Source of the DNA: a virus
IMG/VR virus record: IMGVR_UViG_3300030117_002909
Location: 3,710 to 35,111 of that record
DNA length: 31,402 bases
Direction: 5' to 3' (one strand)
A program made the translations under genes and the position numbers. The notes under the pieces are model-generated. The model had not been told where the DNA came from. It did no database searches and saw nothing but the letters and a program-made list of their open reading frames with translations. Shown here in pieces: positions 3,242 through 31,402 of the stretch. Position 1 is the first letter of the stretch, and every line of letters starts with the position of its first letter.

Positions 3242-5962
3242 ATGCCTAAAAAAAGTATAACATTTAATGGATTTGGTGGTGGAATAAATGAATATTCTGA
3301 TCCTGTTGATTTAAAAAACGATGGTACAGGAGCAGAAGAAGTTCCATACAATGATGAATGGATGCTTGACGCTCCTGGTAAATTAACTACTATTAAACCT
3401 CATTTTAAAGAATACACTGACTATACACATGGTTATACAAAGTATGAAAATAATGGATCTAATGGAGAATTGTTTGTTTCTGCTAAAAACGATCAACATA
3501 TTCTTGTAAAAGACAGCAACCTATACAGATTTCAAGGTATTTTTGCTTTAGGAGAGTATATTAACTGGTCTAATAATTCTAATTTTCAAATAGATGTGCC
3601 TGCTAATGGGTCTTTAGGTTCTACAGGTCAAGTTGCTAATGGACATAATATACAAATGACCGCTAGTAGAAATCAAGATTATGTTATATTTCAAGGAGCT
3701 AATGCATCACAAAGTAATGGAACTGGAATGGTATTTGGTAGAGCAACAGATGATGATTCTACAACTGTTAGTAAAGCTCCAAATGATTTGTTTAGATATT
3801 TTGGTGATGATGGAGATGATGATGTGAATGAAGGTACTACTCATTGGATGGATGGTGGTTATGTGCTTAATACAACTTTAAATCATAAAGATGCAGGAGA
3901 CTGGATTTGTTATACAGGTAGCAGTGTTTTAGATTTATCAGGTTCTGGTAGTGCAAATACTGACTTTTCATCTGCTACAGAATTTGTTTTTCATAGCAAT
4001 AACACACATCAACAAACTAGCGCTATAAATTTTAGGACTGGAACTGCTGAAATAGATTCAGATGGTGACCTAGAAACTGGAGGTTATCATCCATTAAGTG
4101 GAATAAGTATAAATGGTATGGGGTGCGCTATAGAAGTTAAAGTTCCAACATCTTTATCTGCTGTTGATTGTATATTTGTTGGAGCAGATAGCGATGATGG
4201 AGATAGTGAATTTGATTTTAATGGTGACGATAAAGGTAAAGTTTGGAAGTTTACAGGAACTATGTTAGATGAAGCTGGTGCTGGAGATGGATTTGTAAGA
4301 TTAACTTTAGGTGCAGACCAAAATTCTTATCAAGGAAGTTTATTTAATGTCTTAGAAGTAAAGCAAGTTTGGGTAATGTTAGCTTTTGCTAATAATATGA
4401 CTGCAGATGGAAATTCTCAATGGGGAGGTACAGCAAGTTATACTCATATAGACGACTCTCAAATGAGAATAAGAGAAGTATCTTTTTATAAAGATAGTCT
4501 TGTAGATAATTGGGGAGAAGATAGTTATAATATTTATCAGACTAGAGTAGAAAAAGATATAGAATCTTTAACAAAAGTTTATAGTTCTAAATATTCTGCT
4601 ACACCTAATCCTGTTTTACTTACAGTTCACCAGTCAACCACATCAGGTTATAAAGGTAAATTATATTATGAGGCACTAGATAGTGATAATAATGTTGTTG
4701 GAGACAAGTTTTTAATGTGTGAAACAGACGCTACTGATGGTATTAGAAAAGTTGGCGAAGATGATTATGTTGCATGGTCTTCAAATAAAGCTTCTATATT
4801 GTTAGAAGGTCCACCAGTATTTTCTACATATACTTTAGAATCAGGCTATCCTGAAGGCACAGAAGAAATAAATGCAAGATGGAAACATTCAGCTGTTAAT
4901 GGAAGGCAAGTTTATATTGGGAATGTACAACAACCTATAGATGCAACTAAAAAAATTACAGAATGGGACAATGGGACGATATTAAAAGGAGTTATAGGTA
5001 AACCTGGTGGGTTTTCTGATAAAGTTTTTATAGATCTAGAATTAGGTGAAGGTTCTATAACTTGTATGAGAAGTGTTGGAGATAGGCTTTTTGTTTTTAC
5101 TAAAAATAAGTTAGTTATAATAAACGTAGCGCAAGATAATGAATTTTTAGAAGATACAGCAGAAGGAATGGGCGTTAAACATCCAGGACAAGTTATTGAA
5201 ATTGAAGGTAGTGTATTTATAGTAAATGGAAGAGGATTAACTGTATTTACTGGGCAGAAATTTCAAAATCTATCTCAAAGAATAGGTAGTAAATTTAATG
5301 CAAATAGTTCTAGATTAACATATGATCCTCAAAGAAAAAATCTTTTTATATGGAGACACAGTAGTGAAATGTATGCTTATAATTTAAATTTAAATACGTT
5401 TGTTTACAGAGTTACTAACTTTAATGATAGCACAGCAGGTTCAGGTGTTCCTACAACAAATACTTTAATGTTGCAAAGAAGAAATATAACTAATGGGAAT
5501 GCTCCTAGTATGGCTGGTTTTTATTATAGCAATTTTAATTCTTCTCAACAAAGGTATGGATATTTAAGGTATTCAGGATATAAAGTTATAGATGAAATTG
5601 ATGATGGTAATAGTGATTATAGTGCAACACCAAGAACAATCAATAGTCCAGTTATAGATTTTGGTAATCCTTCAAGAAGAAAGAAAATTTATAAAGCTTA
5701 TGTTAATTTAGCAGAAACTCAAAGCGGTGGTACAATGCAAATAAAAATGTCGTATTCCACAGATAGAGGATCAAGTTGGACTGATGGTTATCCAGAAGAA
5801 ACTGGAGGAGGTTCAGCATACTTATCTTTAGGTTTAAATACTATACCTGTAAGTGTTACATGCAAAACATTTCAGTTTAGATTTTATGCTAATAGTAGTA
5901 CACACGCATATTATGAAATTGGAGATATAAGTATAACATATAGGGATAAACCATTACGATGA
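3242..5962 (+). CDS. Tail nozzle / stabilisation-like virion protein
   Basis: A 906-aa protein beginning with the phrase SITFNGFGGGINEYSDP, typical of large phage 'stabilisation' or tail-tube-nozzle proteins (P22 gp10-like hub proteins) that sit under the portal. The middle is beta-rich with many Gly/Asp/Asn. The region about 600-720 has blade-like repeats (SITCMRSVGDRLFVFTKNKL, QVIEIEGSVFIVNGRGLTVF, NLFIWRHSSEMYAYNLNLN) suggesting a beta-propeller, and the C-terminus looks like a beta-sandwich. No signal peptide or protease motif is visible. The ATG has no Shine-Dalgarno sequence; the leader is A/U-rich downstream of a stem-loop. Its position before the ejection proteins fits a tail component. 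The exact homologue needs structural comparison. Confidence 0.65.
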   Translation: MPKKSITFNGFGGGINEYSDPVDLKNDGTGAEEVPYNDEWMLDAPGKLTTIKPHFKEYTDYTHGYTKYENNGSNGELFVSAKNDQHILVKDSNLYRFQGIFALGEYINWSNNSNFQIDVPANGSLGSTGQVANGHNIQMTASRNQDYVIFQGANASQSNGTGMVFGRATDDDSTTVSKAPNDLFRYFGDDGDDDVNEGTTHWMDGGYVLNTTLNHKDAGDWICYTGSSVLDLSGSGSANTDFSSATEFVFHSNNTHQQTSAINFRTGTAEIDSDGDLETGGYHPLSGISINGMGCAIEVKVPTSLSAVDCIFVGADSDDGDSEFDFNGDDKGKVWKFTGTMLDEAGAGDGFVRLTLGADQNSYQGSLFNVLEVKQVWVMLAFANNMTADGNSQWGGTASYTHIDDSQMRIREVSFYKDSLVDNWGEDSYNIYQTRVEKDIESLTKVYSSKYSATPNPVLLTVHQSTTSGYKGKLYYEALDSDNNVVGDKFLMCETDATDGIRKVGEDDYVAWSSNKASILLEGPPVFSTYTLESGYPEGTEEINARWKHSAVNGRQVYIGNVQQPIDATKKITEWDNGTILKGVIGKPGGFSDKVFIDLELGEGSITCMRSVGDRLFVFTKNKLVIINVAQDNEFLEDTAEGMGVKHPGQVIEIEGSVFIVNGRGLTVFTGQKFQNLSQRIGSKFNANSSRLTYDPQRKNLFIWRHSSEMYAYNLNLNTFVYRVTNFNDSTAGSGVPTTNTLMLQRRNITNGNAPSMAGFYYSNFNSSQQRYGYLRYSGYKVIDEIDDGNSDYSATPRTINSPVIDFGNPSRRKKIYKAYVNLAETQSGGTMQIKMSYSTDRGSSWTDGYPEETGGGSAYLSLGLNTIPVSVTCKTFQFRFYANSSTHAYYEIGDISITYRDKPLR

Positions 5963-6150
5963 GAACTAGAGCTGAAAGAAGAATGTTACATACAGCAGAA
6001 AAAAGGAAATCTAATAGTGTTGCTTCTAGTAGGCAAAATAGTAGCTATAATAGAAATATAAGAGGTAAAAATTATATAGTTACTAAACAAAATGGACAAG
6101 AATATTATCAAGAATTAAAAACTAGAAAACAAATAGAAAAGGAAAGTTAG
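5959..6150 (+). CDS. 63-aa basic protein
   Basis: An ATGA overlap joins it to the end of the nozzle-like gene. The product is very rich in Arg, Lys, Ser, Asn and Gln (RTRAERRMLHTAEKRKSNS at the start), with no hydrophobic core or cysteines. It looks intrinsically disordered and could bind DNA or acidic virion proteins. The next gene follows after 7 nt. I recognise no family; the coupled position argues it is translated with the virion genes. Confidence 0.6.
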   Translation: MRTRAERRMLHTAEKRKSNSVASSRQNSSYNRNIRGKNYIVTKQNGQEYYQELKTRKQIEKES

Positions 6151-6157
6151 GTAGGTT

Positions 6158-7615
6158 ATGGCTAAGAAGGCACCTTCATTAAGCGCAATACGTTATGCTA
6201 ATGCAGCAGAAGCTAAAGTTTTGGAAAACATTCAAAAAGAAAGGCAACAGTTTATATCAGATTTAGCAGATACTACTGCTTTAGCTGTTGTTTCGTTAGA
6301 TACTTATAAAGATGATTTAAAAGATCAAAGAATGGCAAAAGAAATAGCTTTTGATTATGGTTTTAATTACAATCCATTTAAAAAGGATTTTACAAAAATA
6401 ATTGATGGTACTCCTGTAAGAATTAATCTAGATGATATGAAAAGTTATAGCAAAATAGCAACTGAGACAGATCAAACTTTTGAGACTATTTTTAAAAAGC
6501 CAAGTATTGTAAAATTACACTCATTAACTTCTGCTGATGTTGATGATACACTTTCAGATTATATAGATTATAAAGGCAGTTATTTAAAAAGTGGTAAAAG
6601 AGAAATAAAAGAAAGAACTGCTTATGGAAGAACAATCACATCATTAATGCCAGAAGGTTTTGATTTAGCAGAATTTGAAGGTTCTTTAGATGCATCTCCT
6701 GTCATTTCTTCATCTGATGACTTGTTGAAATCAATAAATACCCTATATGATAAAGAATATGGCAATATAGATGAATACTATAGTGAGGTAAAAGATGGTA
6801 AAATTGATGCAAGCATGCTAAATAGTATTGCGTCTTTTGGTAAACATGGAGATAAATATATAACAATGGTTGGTGGTGAGCTTGCTCATGTTAATAAAAA
6901 AGAAATGTATTTGAAACAAATGTATGGTGATAAAGCAGATGAAATGATTATGGCTTCTGGTGCTGGAACTATAAATGAAACAACTAATTTAATACAATAC
7001 TATACTCCACCTCAATCAACCATGGGAGAACAAGGTGGTGGTGGTTATGGTGGTACTGGCTCGGAAGAAGGAGGTGGCTGGATGGAACTTCTACTTGCTG
7101 GAACGACAGTTGGAACTATTTTAGGTGTAGGTAAAATGGTATATGGTGCTATTGAAGGTCATCAAGCTGACTCTAGACGTGTAGGTCAAATAAATAATGA
7201 GTTAGCAGAATTAGCTACTACTCTTAAAAATACTCAAAGTGAAAAAGTTGATGCAACCCAAAATGTAATAACAAGTGCAGGAATACAAGCTGATGCTGTA
7301 ACTAGTGGTGCTGGAGATGCTTTAAATCGTCTTGATAGCACTTACACAACTTCTGTTAAATCTAGCAAAGGGTTAAAAACAGGGGGTCAAGAATTATTAT
7401 TAGAAGAAAGTAAAGGTCAAGTACAGGATCAAGTTGTTGCAGCATTAGATAATATTGAAACAAAAACAGGTATGCAAGTTGAAGATGTTGCAGGTAAATA
7501 TGATCAACAGATTGCGGATATAGAAAGATATGAGCAACAACTTAAAAATGAAAAAGAACAATTAGAAGGTAAAACAACTTATAAAATAGGAAAAGAAGTA
7601 TCAAGTTGGTTTTAG
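6158..7615 (+). CDS. Probable internal virion (ejection) protein, 485 aa
   Basis: A mostly alpha-helical protein. The N-terminal 290 residues are charged, followed by a Gly-rich linker (GEQGGGGYGGTGSEEGGG, about 289-306) and one hydrophobic segment (WMELLLAGTTVGTILGVGKM). A long Ala/Gln/Glu-rich coiled coil runs to the C-terminus (residues about 340-475). A membrane-insertable segment plus coiled coil, ahead of increasingly large proteins, is the pattern of podovirus internal virion proteins that form the trans-envelope channel (T7 gp14-gp15-gp16 analogy). No direct sequence relation to T7 is evident. The role is inferred from architecture and order. Confidence 0.55.
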   Translation: MAKKAPSLSAIRYANAAEAKVLENIQKERQQFISDLADTTALAVVSLDTYKDDLKDQRMAKEIAFDYGFNYNPFKKDFTKIIDGTPVRINLDDMKSYSKIATETDQTFETIFKKPSIVKLHSLTSADVDDTLSDYIDYKGSYLKSGKREIKERTAYGRTITSLMPEGFDLAEFEGSLDASPVISSSDDLLKSINTLYDKEYGNIDEYYSEVKDGKIDASMLNSIASFGKHGDKYITMVGGELAHVNKKEMYLKQMYGDKADEMIMASGAGTINETTNLIQYYTPPQSTMGEQGGGGYGGTGSEEGGGWMELLLAGTTVGTILGVGKMVYGAIEGHQADSRRVGQINNELAELATTLKNTQSEKVDATQNVITSAGIQADAVTSGAGDALNRLDSTYTTSVKSSKGLKTGGQELLLEESKGQVQDQVVAALDNIETKTGMQVEDVAGKYDQQIADIERYEQQLKNEKEQLEGKTTYKIGKEVSSWF

Positions 7616-24494: not shown

Positions 24495-26264
24495 CTAGTT
24501 TGTTTTTTCTATTCTAACATTATTAACAGCTAATCTTGCTTGTAAGTGTTCTTTTTCCCTATTTTTATCACATTTAATGTCTAATATCTCCACTAAACCT
24601 GTTTCTTTATTCTTAAATGGGTTAATTGAAATCACTTTATTAGCATTATAAGCTATTCTAAATGAACCTCTAGATGAAGATATATCCATACCTTCTTTGA
24701 AAGCTGACTTACTTACCTCACTAACAGCGAAGACGATCACATTTTGTCTTACTGCAAGTTCCATAATAGCTTGAGATGCTTCTTCAACTTTCATATTGTT
24801 ATCCTTTTGTTTGCTCTTAAATAGGCCCAAATGGTCAACAATTACTATTTCTGGCTTAATGGGTAGGCTAGTTATTCTTTGTTCTAATTCTTGCGCATAT
24901 GGCGCTGAATAATCAACAGTTAACCATTCAAAACGTTTATCCATACCATTTTTCATTTGCTTATAGTGTTCAGATAATTGTTTTTCGTCCCATCCCATTT
25001 CAATTTGTACAAATCTAGACCATATTTGTCTTGGTGACATCTCCATTTCAACAAAATATGTTTGTTTCTTGAAGTAATTAGCCCAGTTTTGTAGTAACAT
25101 AGTCTTCATACTAGCTGGTGGAGCCTGAATTATAACAGTTTCACCTGGATATACAGGAAAATCTTGATCATAAGGCTCACCTAAGTTAATAGGTTTTAAG
25201 TCTTGAGCATAGAAATTAATTAATTCGTTTTCCATACTACTAGAATCCATCATATTCTCTGCCTTAGCACCTCTATGTAGTGTGCATCTAGAGTTACAAT
25301 AGAACTTAATAACTGGATCATCAGCGCCATATCTATAACCTTGACCATCATGACCAGTATAACAACCTTCTATTATACCTTCCATTTCTTCTGCTTTAAA
25401 CTCACTCTGAGCAGCGTTACTAACTTTTACACGCCAATCTTCCATAATAAGTCTTACAATGTTCTCTGGAAAGTTCCATCTTAGGTATGATGCTAGTCTA
25501 AGAGCAACCATATGACGTTTACCATGTGGAGCACCTTCCATCATCTTCTGTATACAGTTAGTATTAACAGGATCTCTGGTTGTTGCTACCTTTATAGGTA
25601 ATTGTTCTTTAGGTTTTTCTTTATCTAATACATCAAACACAGGAGCAGCCATTTCTATATCTTCATACTCTATATCTCTAGGTTTAGCCGCTAGTTTTAA
25701 TAACTCTTCTTTAAATACATCATCTTCTTGATTAAGTATATCTATACTATCCTCTATACATACTTTGTATAGTCCAGATTTAGTATTTTTAGTGTTATTA
25801 ACACGTATAATTCTACTTTTATCAGTAACAGAAGGGTCAGCATATTCAAATATACCTGCTTTTGTTAACTGATCTTTTACTTCTATGTGCAAATTAGCAC
25901 TTGGTTTCCAATCAAATGCTGATGAATGTATACCAACATGAAATCCAGTACCACTAAAATACGTTCTATAATATAGGTTTAAGTCATCTAGTACAATCAT
26001 TAAACCAGTTAACTTATCTCTCGCATCTCTTATGCTACTACCATCCACATCTAATATAAATTCATCAGGCATATATATTAAACCGTCAAATCCTGATAAA
26101 GATTTGTTCTTAGCGTAAAACTCTACAACATACTCGTCATAGTTATATAAAGACATAAACGTATCACTATCTGTACCCATCCATTCAGAAATTTTGTCTA
26201 TTCCCTGAAAATTATGTCTATTACTAACTCCTAATGCAAATTCTTTAAACATTTCAATCTTCAT
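24495..26264 (-). CDS. AEP-type primase fused to SF4 (DnaB/RepA-like) helicase
   Basis: A 589-aa replication enzyme. The N-terminal primase has the archaeo-eukaryotic primase signs: FILDVDG (D72/D74), SGTGFH (104-109) and a basic RIIRV (151-155). A linker with PriCT-like sequence and C301, C323 and C327 follows (about 234-330). The C-terminal RecA-like helicase has a P-loop at APPASMKT (381-388), Walker B IVIVDHLG (473-480) and later FAVSEV and SSSRGSFRI strands. It would unwind DNA and make primers at the fork. The P-loop lacks both usual glycines. ATG 26264 is chosen because GGAGG lies just before it; a GTG six codons upstream would place that site inside the gene. Confidence 0.82.
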   Translation of the reverse strand: MKIEMFKEFALGVSNRHNFQGIDKISEWMGTDSDTFMSLYNYDEYVVEFYAKNKSLSGFDGLIYMPDEFILDVDGSSIRDARDKLTGLMIVLDDLNLYYRTYFSGTGFHVGIHSSAFDWKPSANLHIEVKDQLTKAGIFEYADPSVTDKSRIIRVNNTKNTKSGLYKVCIEDSIDILNQEDDVFKEELLKLAAKPRDIEYEDIEMAAPVFDVLDKEKPKEQLPIKVATTRDPVNTNCIQKMMEGAPHGKRHMVALRLASYLRWNFPENIVRLIMEDWRVKVSNAAQSEFKAEEMEGIIEGCYTGHDGQGYRYGADDPVIKFYCNSRCTLHRGAKAENMMDSSSMENELINFYAQDLKPINLGEPYDQDFPVYPGETVIIQAPPASMKTMLLQNWANYFKKQTYFVEMEMSPRQIWSRFVQIEMGWDEKQLSEHYKQMKNGMDKRFEWLTVDYSAPYAQELEQRITSLPIKPEIVIVDHLGLFKSKQKDNNMKVEEASQAIMELAVRQNVIVFAVSEVSKSAFKEGMDISSSRGSFRIAYNANKVISINPFKNKETGLVEILDIKCDKNREKEHLQARLAVNNVRIEKTN

Positions 26265-26355
26265 GTATATCCTCCAATCCACTCTTAACTAGTAATATTA
26301 ATGTTCCTATAGCTAAGATAAATATTGATAGGAATATAAGTATTATCTCTATCAC
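26254..26355 (-). CDS. 33-aa membrane peptide (GTG start)
   Basis: A GTG with a strong site (CGGAGGAACAAAA) overlaps the stop of the upstream gene. The frame encodes VIEIILIFLSIFILAIGTLI followed by LLVKSGLEDIHED. Residues 3-23 are one uninterrupted transmembrane segment, and the acidic tail would face the cytoplasm. It ends inside the first codons of the primase-helicase gene (11-nt overlap). The good ribosome site and perfect tiling argue that it is real. A tiny membrane peptide in an early operon could be an exclusion or membrane-anchoring factor; that is inference. Confidence 0.6.
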   Translation of the reverse strand: MIEIILIFLSIFILAIGTLILLVKSGLEDIHED

Positions 26356-26638: not shown

Positions 26639-27181
26639 CTAAAAGGGTATCTCGTCATCACTCTCGGAGGAATCAGAAGTATCAACGACACTTTCTAATT
26701 TCTTTTCTATTTTAGGTTGAACATACTCTTTAAAGTATTTTTCTGCTCTATCTTTCCAGAATTGAACATCATCAGCATTAAAGCTTTCAACAACGTTCTC
26801 AAATTCAGTTGGAGCACACTGATTTAATACTCTTGAGTATTTACCATCTTTGTGTATATATATATTAATAGATTTACCTATAAGAGCTTCAGGGCTATCA
26901 TCTAATTTGATAACTTTAGTATTGTTTGCACCTTCTAAAGCGCTAGTAATACCAGCATTAGCATATCTAAATAGATTACCAATAGCAAATTCTTCACCAC
27001 TAGCATTCTTCTTTTCATATACTCTCATATTTAATGAGTCAGGAAGTTCATCGAAATAAACATCTATATATTTAGTACCATTATAATCACCATATTCAGC
27101 TTTACTTATAAGCTTGGTATGCCATCCAGTTGAGAAACTAGATCCACCACCTGTTTTTACTGTCAACGTTCTTGTTGCCAT
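26639..27181 (-). CDS. Single-stranded DNA-binding protein (SSB-like)
   Basis: A 180-aa protein. The N-terminal ~125 residues have a beta-rich, OB-fold-like pattern (RTLTVKTGGGSSFSTGWHTK, YIDVYFDELPDSLNMRVYE). A helical linker follows, then an acidic C-terminal tail ending SDDEIPF. That tail is nearly identical to the DDDIPF tip by which bacterial SSB recruits replication partners. It would coat ssDNA during phage replication and Erf-mediated annealing. The gene follows erf by 11 nt with AAGGAG upstream. The OB-fold itself is inferred; the tail and neighbours are the firm evidence. Confidence 0.75.
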   Translation of the reverse strand: MATRTLTVKTGGGSSFSTGWHTKLISKAEYGDYNGTKYIDVYFDELPDSLNMRVYEKKNASGEEFAIGNLFRYANAGITSALEGANNTKVIKLDDSPEALIGKSINIYIHKDGKYSRVLNQCAPTEFENVVESFNADDVQFWKDRAEKYFKEYVQPKIEKKLESVVDTSDSSESDDEIPF

Positions 27182-27192
27182 GTATTCTCCTT

Positions 27193-27699
27193 TTATTTAC
27201 GAATTGAATTAGCATCGTCATCATACTGAGCGATACCTACTATTGCAGATAAACCGTATCTACGACCGTATGTTATTGCAGCACCTACACCTTGTGCATC
27301 TACTTTAGATAAAGGTAGTTTAACCTTTGATCTAAGCCATTGACCTGACGAATGCATAAGTGTAGTAGTTACACATACTGCTCCAGGCACTATTTCATTA
27401 CCTTGACTAACAGATAAACCATGTTTACTTAAATATGGAAACGATGATTTAATTACTGCATGTAAGTCTGCATAACTAGATTTAAAGAATGGATTTGTGC
27501 TTTCTTTCTTAGCACCTTCTAATTCAGACTGTACTTTAGCTAATGCTTCTGCTAATTTGTCTATTTCAGGTGATTTCCATTCATCTCTATTTCTATCTTC
27601 ATAATTGTCGATAGCTTTTTGTTTTTCTTCTTCTTTTTGTTTTGCTTCTAGTACAGTTTTAGCTATACCAGTTTGTTTTGAAACATCGATATTACTCAT
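27193..27699 (-). CDS. erf: Erf-family single-strand annealing recombinase
   Basis: I start at ATG 27699 (MSNIDVSKQTG), which has AGGAGGACAT in front; the longer reading from 27753 would run through a structured leader and lacks a site. The 168-aa product has the Erf superfamily core: LAEALAKVQSELEGAKKEST, NPFFKSSYADLHAVIKSSFP, SQGNEIVPGAVCVTTTLMHSSGQW and VGAAITYGRRYGLSAIVGI, ending DDDAN. These proteins form rings that anneal complementary single strands, aiding circularisation and recombination. It is adjacent to the SSB-like protein, its natural partner. Confidence 0.88.
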   Translation of the reverse strand: MSNIDVSKQTGIAKTVLEAKQKEEEKQKAIDNYEDRNRDEWKSPEIDKLAEALAKVQSELEGAKKESTNPFFKSSYADLHAVIKSSFPYLSKHGLSVSQGNEIVPGAVCVTTTLMHSSGQWLRSKVKLPLSKVDAQGVGAAITYGRRYGLSAIVGIAQYDDDANSIRK

Positions 27700-27720
27700 A
27701 TGTCCTCCTATTGGTGAGAA

Positions 27721-27778
27721 AGGGTGGAGATGGGAATATAAAGGAAGATACATGCGAATGTACTATCAAAACCACCCT
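27721..27778 (-). promoter_or_regulatory. Closed-stem leader element D (before erf)
   Basis: AGGGTGG pairs with CCACCCT (7 bp), and inside it TACAT-TCGC-ATGTA makes a 5-bp tetraloop hairpin. The stem ends 21 nt before the erf ATG chosen here. The 131-nt gap between the E1-like gene and erf holds only this element and the hairpin at 27792-27831. Confidence 0.55.
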
Positions 27779-27791
27779 GACTCTGTGCTAT

Positions 27792-27831
27792 AGTTATAAA
27801 CCGAAACCTTCGATATGAAGGGTCTATAACT
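27792..27831 (-). promoter_or_regulatory. Two-part hairpin at the end of the E1-like gene
   Basis: AGTTATA (27792-27798) pairs with TATAACT (27825-27831), and inside it CCTTC-GATAT-GAAGG forms a 5-bp hairpin. It begins within the stop codon of the E1-like gene, so it may end or protect that transcript. No U-tract follows on the - strand. TATAACTATAG, which resembles the core of single-subunit phage polymerase promoters, overlaps its 3' arm. Confidence 0.45.
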
Positions 27832-28484
27832 TACGAAGTTAAATACTTTTTATCAAGTATTAATGTGCTAAAATTGAATGTAACTTCCTTAAAATAAGGC
27901 TGTTTCATTACAATGTTCTTTGCAGCATTTGCAATAAAGCTGCCACTCATATTACTACAATAAGATGTAGCTTTACGAGTACATGGTTCTGGATCTGAAT
28001 CATCATCTGAATACCAATTCTTGTCATATTTTGACATTGTTATATTACTATATATGTATTGTTGATAATGTTCAGCTCCCATTCTACCATCTATTACTAT
28101 ATTAGGTTTATAAGGGCATTGTACTAATGATTTAACTATATCTCTTCTAGCTTTCATACTATCTAAGCCTAGAATTAATATACCGTCTTTAGTACCAGCA
28201 TAACTTTGAAATTTGTCAATATGTCCTTCAACCTTAATCATTACATTAACTCTTTTCATATGATTTATTAAAGCGCCTACCTTTGGCAGCCCTACATCTT
28301 GTTCGTTGTATTGGCTTACACCTATATTAGGTATTTCAACTTTATCAAAATCATATAAATGAAAGTTATCTGCACCAAGTCTCACTAATTGCATGGCCAC
28401 GGAGCTACCTATAGCCCCGCAACCTACAATATGAAACTCTACATCTTTTAAGTCTGCTATATCTTGACTTCTAGTGTTGATCAT
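27831..28484 (-). CDS. ThiF/E1-like adenylating enzyme
   Basis: A 217-aa Rossmann protein of the E1/ThiF/MoeB superfamily, which adenylates the C-terminal glycine of ubiquitin-like proteins. Seen: nucleotide loop GCGAIG (21-26), strand end YDFDKVE (D45, D47), PNIG (N53), GLPK (K68), LGLDSMKARR (D108) and C168-x7-C176 near a small helix (SGSFIANAAKNIV), a candidate thiolation region. The usual RQ/R finger after N53 reads VSQY, and there is no four-Cys zinc site as in MoeB. It is shorter than ThiF/MoeB (about 250 aa). Its ATG overlaps the stop of the JAMM peptidase gene (ATGA), so the two are made together. Acts in the cytoplasm; its partner modifier is not certain. Confidence 0.82.
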   Translation of the reverse strand: MINTRSQDIADLKDVEFHIVGCGAIGSSVAMQLVRLGADNFHLYDFDKVEIPNIGVSQYNEQDVGLPKVGALINHMKRVNVMIKVEGHIDKFQSYAGTKDGILILGLDSMKARRDIVKSLVQCPYKPNIVIDGRMGAEHYQQYIYSNITMSKYDKNWYSDDDSDPEPCTRKATSYCSNMSGSFIANAAKNIVMKQPYFKEVTFNFSTLILDKKYLTS

Positions 28485-29446
28485 ATTCCATATCCTCCAT
28501 AAGATTGATTATAAGATGCACAATCTATTAAACTTTCTGCTAAATCATGGTATTTATCATCAGCTGTTAACAGTTCATATGGTTCAGAATCCATCTCAAT
28601 AAACTCTGTTAACTCACGTTTGTTTAATGTTTCTATTTGGATACCATATGGCTCTAATAGCTTATTTGTATGAGTTACAGCAGATTTAAACTTATGCATA
28701 TTCCAAGAACCTGTATTGAATTGTCTGATAAATTCTGTTATTTTACCAGTTGCATACTCCCACTTAGCTTCAAAGTTAGCTTGATCTTGTTGCGTAATAG
28801 TTTGTTCTAAATTATCATCAATCCAACTATAATTAGCCCAATTATAATTACTTCTAAAACCATTTTGGCCAATTGTTAATTGTTTTGGTGATTGTAGTAC
28901 AGAGCCACCAGACTTATAAGAACTTACATAACTACGTTTCCTACATTTAGCCTTAACCTCTGTAACTATATCAAGAGGTATTTCTACATCAGGTGTATCA
29001 TCAATAATATTTATCTCAACATCTTGATGTATTACTACAGGTTTCCATACTGATATTCTGCATTTATATTCCTCTTTAAGATTTACTACAAGAGCAAAAC
29101 TTAAATCAGATTCTCCTTCACCATACTCATCTATACTAGATAAATCAGTACCACTCCAGAATGCATCCATTGTATGATGACTATGCCACCAACAAAATCT
29201 AAAGTTATCATCTTTATATTTAATAGCAGCTTTAGTATAATATTCAGCTAATTGTTCTTTATCAAGATCACATGTTGTTCCACCTATTTCTTGTGTTACT
29301 ATTTGTGGGTCTTGTATTAACCAATCACCATCTTTATCTTGCGTTACTACAGACATACCACCTATTTCAGCTTTTTCTAGATGATATGCGGCTTTGGAAT
29401 AATTTATTATCTTATCCCAACATTCTTTATGTATAAATACTTTCAT
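28481..29446 (-). CDS. JAB/MPN (JAMM) metallopeptidase
   Basis: A 321-aa protein. The N-terminal domain (about 1-145) has a perfect JAMM zinc motif: E27 (AEIGGM), then H88-S-H90 and S98-x2-D101 in WWHSHHTMDAFWSGTD, i.e. E...HSHx7SxxD. JAMM enzymes cut isopeptide or peptide bonds after the C-terminal glycine of ubiquitin-like proteins, either processing precursors or removing them from targets. The C-terminal ~170 residues are an unrecognised extension, ending QSYGGYGI. There is no RadC-type HhH or NlpC/P60 domain, so it is neither a DNA-repair RadC nor a lambda K-type tail protein. TAATG coupling upstream and ATGA coupling to the E1-like gene place it in one cassette. Confidence 0.87.
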   Translation of the reverse strand: MKVFIHKECWDKIINYSKAAYHLEKAEIGGMSVVTQDKDGDWLIQDPQIVTQEIGGTTCDLDKEQLAEYYTKAAIKYKDDNFRFCWWHSHHTMDAFWSGTDLSSIDEYGEGESDLSFALVVNLKEEYKCRISVWKPVVIHQDVEINIIDDTPDVEIPLDIVTEVKAKCRKRSYVSSYKSGGSVLQSPKQLTIGQNGFRSNYNWANYSWIDDNLEQTITQQDQANFEAKWEYATGKITEFIRQFNTGSWNMHKFKSAVTHTNKLLEPYGIQIETLNKRELTEFIEMDSEPYELLTADDKYHDLAESLIDCASYNQSYGGYGI

Positions 29447-29589
29447 TATTTACCCTCCTCGAGCTTTTTTACTTTTTTTTGTAATGTTTTATGTTCTTTT
29501 TTAAGTGTTTCATGATCATTACGCAATGATTTAAACTTAAATTGTAAGTCCTTAATTTCACTACTAAAATATGAAGTTCTAGCGTCCAT
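29446..29589 (-). CDS. 47-aa coiled-coil protein in the JAMM/E1 cassette
   Basis: A short ORF coupled on both sides by TAATG. It encodes MDARTSYFSS followed by a charged helix (EIKDLQFKFKSLRNDHETLK and a Lys-rich remainder) ending KKLEEGK, with Leu/Phe/Val every 3-4 residues: a dimeric coiled coil. Its last codons form the GAGGAGGG ribosome site of the JAMM gene. It may be an adaptor or a specificity factor of the cassette, but nothing beyond the coiled coil is visible. Confidence 0.6.
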   Translation of the reverse strand: MDARTSYFSSEIKDLQFKFKSLRNDHETLKKEHKTLQKKVKKLEEGK

Positions 29590-29840
29590 TATTTCTCCAT
29601 TTCTTCTGGTAAAGGCTCTTCTGGAGCATCAACTATTTTATCCCAAGGGATATGTGTTTCATGTCTTGATACATAATTATCATCAAATACAGTATCAGGA
29701 ACATGTTCTACTACTTCAAATGTCATACCGTCAGGAGTTTTATAGACCTCCAGATCAAGTCTAACATTATTTATTTTAATAGTTCTACAAGACAATCTCT
29801 TGTAATGTGCTTTCATACTATTTTCTGTTACAAAACTCAT
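29589..29840 (-). CDS. 83-aa protein of the E2/JAMM/E1 cassette, function unknown
   Basis: Lies between the E2-like gene and the coiled-coil gene with TAATG junctions on both sides; the Glu-rich end of the E2-like gene supplies its GAGGAGG site. Residues about 18-50 look beta-rich (CRTIKINNVRLDLEVYK, then DGMTFEVVEHV). A helical/turn region and a PEEPLPEEMEK tail follow. Size and position would suit a ubiquitin-like modifier, but the end lacks a glycine pair and a beta-grasp fold cannot be shown by eye. It could instead be an adaptor. Confidence 0.6.
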   Translation of the reverse strand: MSFVTENSMKAHYKRLSCRTIKINNVRLDLEVYKTPDGMTFEVVEHVPDTVFDDNYVSRHETHIPWDKIVDAPEEPLPEEMEK

Positions 29841-31252
29841 TATTCCTCCTCATTTAATTGTTCATTAACATGTTGTCTAAGTTCTTCAAGATCTGCTTCA
29901 TCCATTTCATCATTTATTCTAGCTTCATCTTCAGGATTCCATTGTTCACGATCACCTTGTATTGGTTGAAAATCTACTACAGGTGTAGTTGAAGTTGGTT
30001 GCCCATCATCATTTACACTATGTATTACAGTTGGAGCAGCATTATTTACACCACCCATTCTAGTAGCCCATTGAAGTGTCATTTGTTCAGCTTCTTCTGG
30101 CGATACTGGTTTAGGATATGCTTGTTTATACTTAATACAAGTAGCTCTAAAAGTACAAGAATGAATATCACAATAATCTTCATAACCAGAAGGATCATAC
30201 ATACAATCTTCCGACCTATTTGTACCAAATACACTTCTATATCTTTCAGATAACTTTGCTGGTTCACCATGATACATAGTCTTTATATTATGATGTGGAC
30301 CTGTCGAATTAGTATATGTTGTAGCCCAATTAGTAAGTTGTAATACAAATGAAGACATATTAAATGAACGTAAGGCTGAGTTTATATTGTTAACATCATC
30401 ACCAAAACATACACTATTTCCAAATACTCCATCTCTATCATTCCAACTTCTACCTCCAGAAATGTAAGGGAAATATAAATGTCCTCTTTCATCCCATTGA
30501 TGCACTTTACCAAACACATTAGTATCAAACATAGGATTATTAAATTCTCTATTTCTAGTCATAGTTTGAACAGGATAAGATATTACATTTAATTCTATAT
30601 CTAAACTACAGTCTATATTTTCTATATGTTCAGCAGATTGTGTACTATTTCTTCCTTCAGTTAGATATATTTTCATAACTTCTGGTGATAACATGAATGT
30701 ATTTACTAACATATATCTTTTACTACTTCTAGAAGTTGGATGTACATATAACTGATGACCTATATCACTTATGAATATATCTAATCCATCTACTAGTTTT
30801 TGAGCTGTTTCTACATGTTCAGAAATATAATTAGTATATAATGCTTTTCTTTCAACAAGAATGCTTGGATCATCTAACCATACTTCACCACCATCTCTTA
30901 ATTGATATAACATCATATCCATATTTCTTAAATCATTTTGAACTCTACCCCAGTCATGTCGTCTAAAGTAGTCTTCTCTAGATAGAAAGTTATACATACC
31001 ACTTGGTTTTCTTTCAAACCCTAACTGTCTATTCATAAGTTCAGCTACTCTTTGATATGTACCACGTTTCCATTTAAATGTCTTAGTTATTTCTAAGTTA
31101 GCTCTCCATCTTGTATTAAATCTATTTAAATGTTCTAATACTTCACCTTGAGGACCGAAATATATATGGTCGCCAAGATCTTCTACTTCTATCTCTTCTA
31201 TACATTGTTCTATAGTACCATCTACTATACAATCGTATTCTCTATAATTCAT
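29840..31252 (-). CDS. E2/UBC-like protein with Cys-rich C-terminal module
   Basis: A 470-aa protein that opens the cassette, with CTTGGAGG before the ATG. Residues about 215-325 follow the order of the E2/RWD (UBC) fold: strands DIELNVISYPVQT, an aromatic/Pro turn HLYFPYISGG, then NSVCFGD with C282 in the place of the E2 active cysteine, and helices INSALRSFNMSSFVLQLTNWA followed by TGPHH. Prokaryotic E2-like families show a similar P-h-h...G.xC.G pattern. A Cys cluster (C350, C361, C366, C372) follows and may bind zinc. The C-terminus is acidic and disordered. The N-terminal 200 residues are unrecognised. The E2 call rests on this pattern plus adjacency to E1-like and JAMM genes. Confidence 0.5.
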   Translation of the reverse strand: MNYREYDCIVDGTIEQCIEEIEVEDLGDHIYFGPQGEVLEHLNRFNTRWRANLEITKTFKWKRGTYQRVAELMNRQLGFERKPSGMYNFLSREDYFRRHDWGRVQNDLRNMDMMLYQLRDGGEVWLDDPSILVERKALYTNYISEHVETAQKLVDGLDIFISDIGHQLYVHPTSRSSKRYMLVNTFMLSPEVMKIYLTEGRNSTQSAEHIENIDCSLDIELNVISYPVQTMTRNREFNNPMFDTNVFGKVHQWDERGHLYFPYISGGRSWNDRDGVFGNSVCFGDDVNNINSALRSFNMSSFVLQLTNWATTYTNSTGPHHNIKTMYHGEPAKLSERYRSVFGTNRSEDCMYDPSGYEDYCDIHSCTFRATCIKYKQAYPKPVSPEEAEQMTLQWATRMGGVNNAAPTVIHSVNDDGQPTSTTPVVDFQPIQGDREQWNPEDEARINDEMDEADLEELRQHVNEQLNEEE

Positions 31253-31270
31253 AAATCCTCCAAGATTTAA

Positions 31271-31344
31271 TAAAGAGAGACATTAGGTATATGAAGTGTA
31301 TAATATGCCCAAAATGCACTTTGAGGACCCAACATCTCTCTTTA
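31271..31344 (-). promoter_or_regulatory. Closed-stem leader element A (before the E2-like gene)
   Basis: TAAAGAGAGA pairs perfectly with TCTCTCTTTA. The pairing continues inward, TGTTGGGT with ACCTAATG, through G-U wobbles, giving about 18 bp as RNA. The loop contains AAGTG/CACTT. The stem ends 18 nt before the ATG. Immediately upstream is GTTAACCTTAAAGAGAG, similar to the sequence at element B. Confidence 0.65.
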
Positions 31345-31364
31345 AGGTTAACAAAAGTCAATAA

Positions 31365-31402
31365 TTACTGATCACCGCCAGATTTATTATTATTAACTGC
31401 TG
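31365..31402 (-). CDS. C-terminal fragment of an upstream gene ending KSGGDQ (partial)
   Basis: The - strand enters from the right edge with a frame reading AVNNNKSGGDQ and TAA at 31367-31365. Only 11 residues are visible, so the call is weak. Another frame (QQLIIINLAVISNY, stop at 31360) is also open. I prefer the first because it is polar and ends near the leader element, as phage genes here do. The glycine pair two residues from the end is notable beside a JAMM/E1 cassette. The rest of the gene lies outside. Confidence 0.35.
   Translation of the reverse strand, partial: AVNNNKSGGDQ

Follow-up and report, generated by a model that had tools for sequence, protein, structure and literature searches.

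The DNA analysed here (the window, 31,402 nucleotides) covers bases 3710-35111 of the 35,111-base IMG/VR virus record IMGVR_UViG_3300030117_002909, and its right edge (31402) is the end of the contig. On the minus strand next to this edge lies a group of genes that we read, with a probability of about 0.8, as a complete phage-encoded cassette for conjugation of a ubiquitin-like modifier (Ubl), in the order Ubl-E2-JAMM-E1. The reading rests on the genes present, on their conservation and co-occurrence, on conserved catalytic residues and on the predicted beta-grasp fold and Gly-Gly of the Ubl. Bacterial Ubl conjugation (Bil, CBASS) is known as an anti-phage weapon; here the phage itself seems to own the whole Ubl pathway, modifier included. 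The same appears to hold for hundreds of relatives, among them the cultured phage crAss001.

In the direction of transcription, the window encodes a 470-amino acid (aa) protein, products of 83 and 47 aa (p83 and p47), the JAMM protein (321 aa) and the ThiF/E1 protein (217 aa). Downstream of these come erf, ssb and dnaB. The genes for the E2-like, JAMM and E1 proteins are coupled in translation; three junctions between the open reading frames of the block share one base (TAATG-type) and one is a 4-base overlap (ATGA-type). An earlier interpretation of the window (the sequence-only reading) had reported the five open reading frames with their coordinates and junctions, the NSVCFGD motif with C282 and the JAMM motif, and all of these are present as reported. 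It had taken the five genes as one coupled block. The E2, JAMM and E1 core of that block was retained, but p83 and p47 are cargo that occurs sporadically. With no more than its final 11 codons inside the window, the Ubl gene had been overlooked. The components of the cassette are as follows:

31365..31402, minus strand: 3' end of the Ubl gene, AVNNNKSGGDQ-stop; the translation is the C-terminus of the relatives' 72-aa Ubl upstream of E2
29840..31252, minus strand: E2-like protein, 470 aa; candidate catalytic Cys282 (30407-30409) in FPYISG...NSVCFGD
30137..30205, minus strand: Cys cluster of the E2-like protein (C350, C361, C366, C372), a probable metal site
28481..29446, minus strand: JAMM metallopeptidase, 321 aa; E27, H88-S-H90-x7-S-x2-D101 (29144-29185)
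27831..28484, minus strand: E1/ThiF-like adenylating enzyme, 217 aa; nucleotide-binding loop 28404-28424, Cys168 27981-27983

The ubiquitin-like modifier

All close relatives whose sequence extends far enough encode, directly 5' of E2, a 72-aa protein ending EGDIVAAVNNNKSGGDQ. The window phage carries this gene too, cut by the contig end, since the last bases of the window (31400-31365) encode AVNNNKSGGDQ and a stop codon in the right place and frame for Ubl. A scan with the Ubl as query gave 27 loci, and E2 follows wherever the fetched sequence should contain it. The Ubl is matched by Pfam ThiS with an E value of 9e-4, just below the ThiS cut-off. The structure predicted for the homologue of the related locus L001 (contig IMGVR_UViG_3300030107_004732, a complete relative) is a beta-grasp with the order beta-beta-alpha-beta-beta and a predicted local distance difference test (pLDDT) score of 84. 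Its top fold match in the PDB is the ubiquitin of Caldiarchaeum subterraneum (6fj7, E 6.7e-4, probability 1.00), and the next matches include MTH1743, NEDD8, SUMO and MoaD-type proteins.

By iterated profiles, 71 distinct Ubl relatives were gathered, two of them by eye. In 71/71 the Ubl domain is closed by K-x-G-G, after which comes an arbitrary, unrelated tail of 0-60 residues; ten of these proteins end exactly at GG. Such a constant GG before a variable tail would be expected of a modifier whose GG has to be exposed by a protease, as in pro-ubiquitins. In Caldiarchaeum, a JAMM protein trims pro-ubiquitin to GG and this step is required before E1 activation (PMC5654768). The product of the upstream gene is a ubiquitin-like modifier with a predicted beta-grasp fold and a GG that the predicted processing would expose at the C-terminus.

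Other candidates for the modifier were rejected. Both p83 and p47 are sporadic, and p83 lacks a conserved terminal GG. The sequence ATRMGG in the tail of the E2-like protein occurs at one site per phage contig searched, is predicted to be helical and is absent from the divergent locus L026.

The JAMM peptidase and the E1 enzyme

The JAMM and E1/ThiF identities proposed in the sequence-only reading were both confirmed. The motif E-x(n)-HxH-x7-S-x2-D is near-invariant in 91 non-redundant JAMM sequences, where H88, S89 and H90 are each kept in 90/90, S98 and D101 in 91/91 and E27 in 87/88. In PADLOC, the JAMM protein matches CBASS-JAB at 3.8e-8, and the best PDB sequence matches of the family profile are to the Caldiarchaeum Rpn11-like JAMM protease (3.9e-4).

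The 217-aa protein matches Pfam ThiF with an E value of 4.3e-19, and its matches in the PDB are UBA5, MccB, UBA1 and Cap2. G21, G23, D45, D47, N53, K68, D108 and C168, which include the residues of the Rossmann nucleotide site (GxGxxG, DxD, K and D) and the candidate catalytic Cys, are each present in 83/83 non-redundant E1 sequences.

The E2-like protein

The 470-aa protein has zero matches in Pfam, NCBIfam and PHROGs. Among its non-redundant relatives, Cys282 is kept in 70/70 and P262 in 69/70, and the motif [HFY]P[YFHL][ILVM] precedes Cys282 in 69/70, with H at its first position in 37. Numerous members read HPYVS...GNVCMG, which is close to the E2 signature, and the strict HP motif was found in 0/428 other long reading frames of the same loci. 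In the non-redundant alignment, the Cys cluster is kept at C350 (68/69), C366 (67/69) and C372 (68/69), and C361 is conserved too. In the AlphaFold model, a long helix is followed by several strands, the Cys loop and two helices, an order that fits an E2. The E2 identity put forward in the sequence-only reading is plausible, the UBC fold being proposed from the motif, the order of helices and strands and the gene order, but that fold itself was left unsupported by the structure and profile searches discussed below.

The tail of this protein (window 30046-29840, residues about 403-470) contains short recurring modules, NTSTGNIHGGE, PIQGDREQ, WPDESPQGDEM and NEEE, which are shuffled among relatives and lie C-terminal to the conserved ATRMGG.

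Conservation, linkage and selection

When IMG/VR was scanned with the JAMM protein as query, 26 contigs were returned, in which the relatives have the same order E2-JAMM-E1-erf-ssb-dnaB where the sequence reaches, well past what chance would give; no erf match was seen in L026. Broader scans matched 305 JAMM and 405 E1 relatives. In a set of 104 distinct JAMM proteins, E1 comes after JAMM in 95/96 testable loci, E2 precedes it in 62/67 and Ubl was found by profile in 39/44, so that the neighbouring genes are indeed conserved together in related phages. Two of the five loci with no profile match to Ubl, L124 and L129, have a divergent KTGG protein, seen by eye; the other three, namely L028 (a crAss-like phage), L198 and L199 (archaea-binned contigs), have Ubl candidates of other types.

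Downstream of E1, at most 4 kb away, erf, ssb or dnaB is found in 72/74 distinct loci, in agreement with the placement before erf and ssb noted earlier. In the window these genes are:

27193..27753, minus strand: Erf-like single-stranded DNA annealing protein (PHROG 2324, E 6.7e-39)
26639..27181, minus strand: single-strand DNA binding protein (weak match to PHROG 378, E 0.014; syntenic in relatives)
24495..26282, minus strand: DnaB-type primase-helicase (PHROG 19, E 8.7e-25)

A Pfam search for terminase, by which these phages might be placed, gave nothing above cut-off.

At the same loci, the Ubl has 93% aa identity and a ratio of nonsynonymous to synonymous substitution (dN/dS) of about 0.10, the JAMM domain 85% and 0.12, and E2 50% and 0.69, the highest ratio of the block. 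That the Ubl outconserves its neighbours is expected, because a modifier must fit E1, E2 and protease. The Ubl also falls below its neighbours in synonymous divergence (pS), and for this reason some recombination may add to the uniformity of the Ubl sequences.

Occurrence in crAss-like phages, Flavobacterium phages and archaea

A cousin cassette was found beside primase/helicase genes in Steigviridae (crAss001 gp79-gp76, Kolpuevirus, Kehishuvirus, cr111 and others) and in the Fpv phages of Flavobacterium psychrophilum. It encodes a protein with a beta-grasp-like N-terminal domain, KSGA/KSGG and a long extension, then an HSH...C.G protein, a JAMM protein and a ThiF protein. The E1 and JAMM of the crAss and Fpv phages align clearly with those of the window, whereas the likeness of Ubl and E2 is one of position and motif only. 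The best hhalign alignments of E2 to the L199 and crAss counterparts land on the active-site motif and are not significant.

In crAss001, the genes of the cassette are currently annotated 'metalloprotease' and 'thiamine biosynthesis protein', and the main text of the crAss001 and crAss-like genome papers has no mention of ubiquitin or ThiF. A literature search that did not extend to the primary Bil papers found no description of a phage Ubl cascade; in the papers covered, phage Ubl and JAB appear only in tail assembly of the lambda/T1 type. As crAss001 is a cultured phage of the human gut, with Bacteroides intestinalis as its laboratory host, it already allows one to ask whether phages tag proteins, which proteins these are, and why the genes stand beside those for replication. 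If the reading is true, new and very divergent families of Ubl and E2 would be added to the prokaryotic record of the origins of ubiquitin.

A scan of bacterial and archaeal genomes gave three weak matches, L198, L199 and L200. The last looks like a misbinned crAss-like contig, L199 is an Asgard cellular contig with metabolic neighbours, and the origin of L198 is uncertain. The order in L199 is a 108-aa protein ending VGG*, an E2 protein with HPFMVEAGAICMGS, JAMM and E1. In L198, which is labelled as an archaeal metagenome-assembled genome, a tandem Ubl precursor (5729-6187) with two units each ending KIDGG is followed by a protein with HPHVSHGDVCVGN, JAMM and E1.

In Flavobacterium phage Fpv1 (L031 5370-7662), an insertion apparently splits the JAMM gene right before LIHSHN. 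The insertion contains an endonuclease gene in the opposite orientation and is probably a homing intron located at the codons of the active site.

Comparison with known systems

Bil operons (BilA Ubl, BilB E2, BilC deubiquitinase (DUB), BilD E1) have the same four parts as the phage cassette in the same order, and the cassette would work like a system of this class; BilABCD is published with the order Ubl-E2-DUB-E1 and a Ubl matured by JAMM (PMC11354881). The Ubl of the window clade is nevertheless a single domain and not a tandem, BilD has one inactive and one active domain whereas the phage E1 is a single adenylation domain, and the phage cassette sits in replication modules. No Bil match was present among the PADLOC matches listed for the window proteins, and neither Ubl, E2 nor JAMM has sequence membership of Bil there; the crAss001 E1 alone matches BilD, weakly (2.5e-5).

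With the ubiquitin systems of Caldiarchaeum and the Asgard contig L199, the cassette shares the best Ubl fold match, the best JAMM sequence match in the PDB, a tailed pro-Ubl and, for L199, the gene order. It differs from them in that no RING E3 gene was seen beside the phage cassette and that the phage E1 and E2 belong to other sequence families; in addition, the Caldiarchaeum JAMM gene is divergently transcribed (PMC5654768). The E1 and JAMM proteins of CBASS (Cap2 and Cap3) are similar in sequence to those of the phage, but in Cap2 the E1 and E2 are fused and the protein conjugates the C-terminus of a CD-NTase, while the phage has a dedicated Ubl and separate E1 and E2, and no CD-NTase was found among the scanned neighbours.

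In PRTRC and operon types 6a-6e (Iyer et al. 2006, PMC1779556), genes for Ubl, E1, JAB and E2-like proteins are grouped as they are in the phage cassette, and type 6d has a stand-alone small Ubl with a C-terminal glycine, like that of the phage. The E1 matches PRTRC_ThiF at E 3.2e-8 with 33.2 bits, under the cut-off of 144.75, the matches to PRTRC_A are insignificant, and no ParB or actin-like genes were seen, so that the cassette falls outside PRTRC. The only phage case in the same survey is the lambda/T1-type Ubl/JAB pair of tail assembly, TAPI/TAPK (PMC1779556). A lambda-type tail JAB carries NlpC and stands beside tail genes; no NlpC domain was found in the JAMM protein of the window and its context is replication, as the sequence-only reading had anticipated in setting the locus apart from lambda K/I.

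Proposed mechanism, role and alternative explanations

For catalysis, transfer order and substrates we infer the following scheme. The JAMM protein would trim the Ubl after Gly-Gly, which in the window phage removes Asp-Gln. E1 would then adenylate the C-terminal glycine with ATP and hold the Ubl as a thioester, probably on Cys168, from which the E2-like protein would accept it on Cys282 and attach it to protein amines. JAMM may also strip the Ubl off again.

Several observations weigh against such a cascade. The position of the E2 motif that is usually His is occupied by Phe in the window clade, and the AlphaFold model of the 470-aa protein is mediocre (pLDDT 67.5). Foldseek gave no significant match of this model to any fold in the PDB, and against BFVD it returned unnamed viral homologues only. 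Sequence-profile searches of the E2-like protein in PDB and Pfam gave no UBC match, the hhalign comparisons of Ubl and E2 with their crAss counterparts were not significant, and in E1 the canonical Arg after N53 is missing. These gaps in fold confirmation, together with the highest dN/dS of the block, would suit a protein that is some other adaptor or a substrate, with E1 transferring the Ubl directly. Such an arrangement has a low probability in our estimation: the invariant Cys282, the motif before it and the helix-strands-Cys-helix-helix order of the model all speak for an E2, and the equivalent genes of the L198 and L199 cassettes carry a clear HPHVSHGDVCVGN and HPFMVEAGAICMGS, respectively.

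The role is more tentative than the parts list. Because the cassette sits in the replication/recombination module in all phage lineages seen, it may serve to modify proteins of the phage or the host, reversibly and without degrading them, at the stage of DNA replication or recombination, although we hold this to be somewhat short of an even chance. A SUMO-like reversible tagging could conceivably be an ancient core part of replication and recombination in several lineages of tailed phages (environmental, Crassvirales and Flavobacterium phages), and with similar reserve we suggest that the phage would then tag its own or the host's replication proteins rather than fight a defence system. A Bil-like weapon between phages or between phage and host, tagging structural proteins of competitors (superinfection exclusion) or of the host, could explain the BilABCD gene order, the weak BilD match of crAss001, the CBASS matches of JAMM and E1 and the variable cargo genes next to the core. 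We consider it rather unlikely, since the linkage is to replication and recombination genes and not to a defence or cargo island, it recurs across lineages, and the Ubl, E2 and JAMM proteins stand outside the Bil families.

The sequence-only reading had proposed that the phage may modify virion or host proteins or else reverse a Ubl-based defence of its host. Modification is favoured here. Deconjugation benefits phages and the JAMM protein resembles those of CBASS, so enzymes that strip or poison host CBASS or Bil conjugation would make sense; yet a DUB alone would be enough, while a highly conserved Ubl-GG, E1 and E2 are kept in nearly every locus. With the full cascade kept together, mere reversal is disfavoured and we regard counter-defence as decidedly unlikely. 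A sulfur-carrier pathway, in which a ThiS/MoaD-like protein, ThiF and JAMM supply sulfur for a small molecule as they do in other ThiS-ThiF-JAMM clusters, would be in agreement with the ThiS match of the Ubl and with ThiF as the best match of E1, and sulfur carriers can also bear a post-GG tail that JAMM removes. This explanation appears very unlikely because a dedicated Cys protein that bears an E2-type signature accompanies the other genes almost constantly and because no sulfurtransferase, cysteine synthase or thiazole enzyme was found among the ten neighbours scanned; moreover, the best fold match of the Ubl is ubiquitin.

Variable slot, spacer and RNA elements

Between E2 and JAMM lies a slot (window 29589-29840, L003 2708-3577 and others) whose content varies from phage to phage: p83, p47, a radical SAM protein resembling spore photoproduct lyase, or nothing. 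The elements of the window in this slot and in the Ubl-E2 spacer are:

31271..31344, minus strand: inverted repeat with arms AAAGAGAGA / TCTCTCTTT in the Ubl-E2 spacer, directly 5' of the E2 ribosome-binding site
29589..29840, minus strand: p83, 83 aa, accessory cargo in the variable slot
29446..29589, minus strand: p47, 47-aa coiled coil, accessory cargo in the variable slot; its family matches are only coiled-coil-type

In 8 compared sequences p83 has a median aa identity of 96% and a pS of 0.17, and it is absent from many others; p47 is sporadic among relatives. The radical SAM gene often precedes p83.

At the spacer position of the inverted repeat, other arm sequences pair by eye in relatives; on the MAFFT alignment, RNAalifold gave only -2.09 kcal/mol. 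An RNA-like element of the form TAGGGCTGTAGTGACAGGCGAG-[variable]-CTAACGAGGGTCAATCAGCCCTA was observed in relatives, with one copy in each of the 12 loci where it was found (L001 8384-8450, L007 7649-7710, L012 2113-2172 and L015 7157-7240, among others). It lies in the Ubl-E2 spacer in some relatives and 5' of another gene in others, with GGAGG directly after it in the copies inspected. The hairpin in the Ubl-E2 spacer of the window (31253-31364) differs from this element. An Rfam search at E values up to 1 reported no match at the positions of the element in four loci.

GOLLD RNAs (Rfam RF02032) are found a few kb 5' of the Ubl cassette in three relatives: L012 1344-1743, L015 6382-6802, where the match is slightly under the RF02032 gathering score, and L019 1467-1882. 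Unusual tRNA-like genes lie close to GOLLD. In L019 (1050-1144) ARAGORN predicts a 'tRNA-Stop (tta)', and the tmRNA model has short matches, about 81 nt long, in L012 (967-1047) and L015 (5980-6061).

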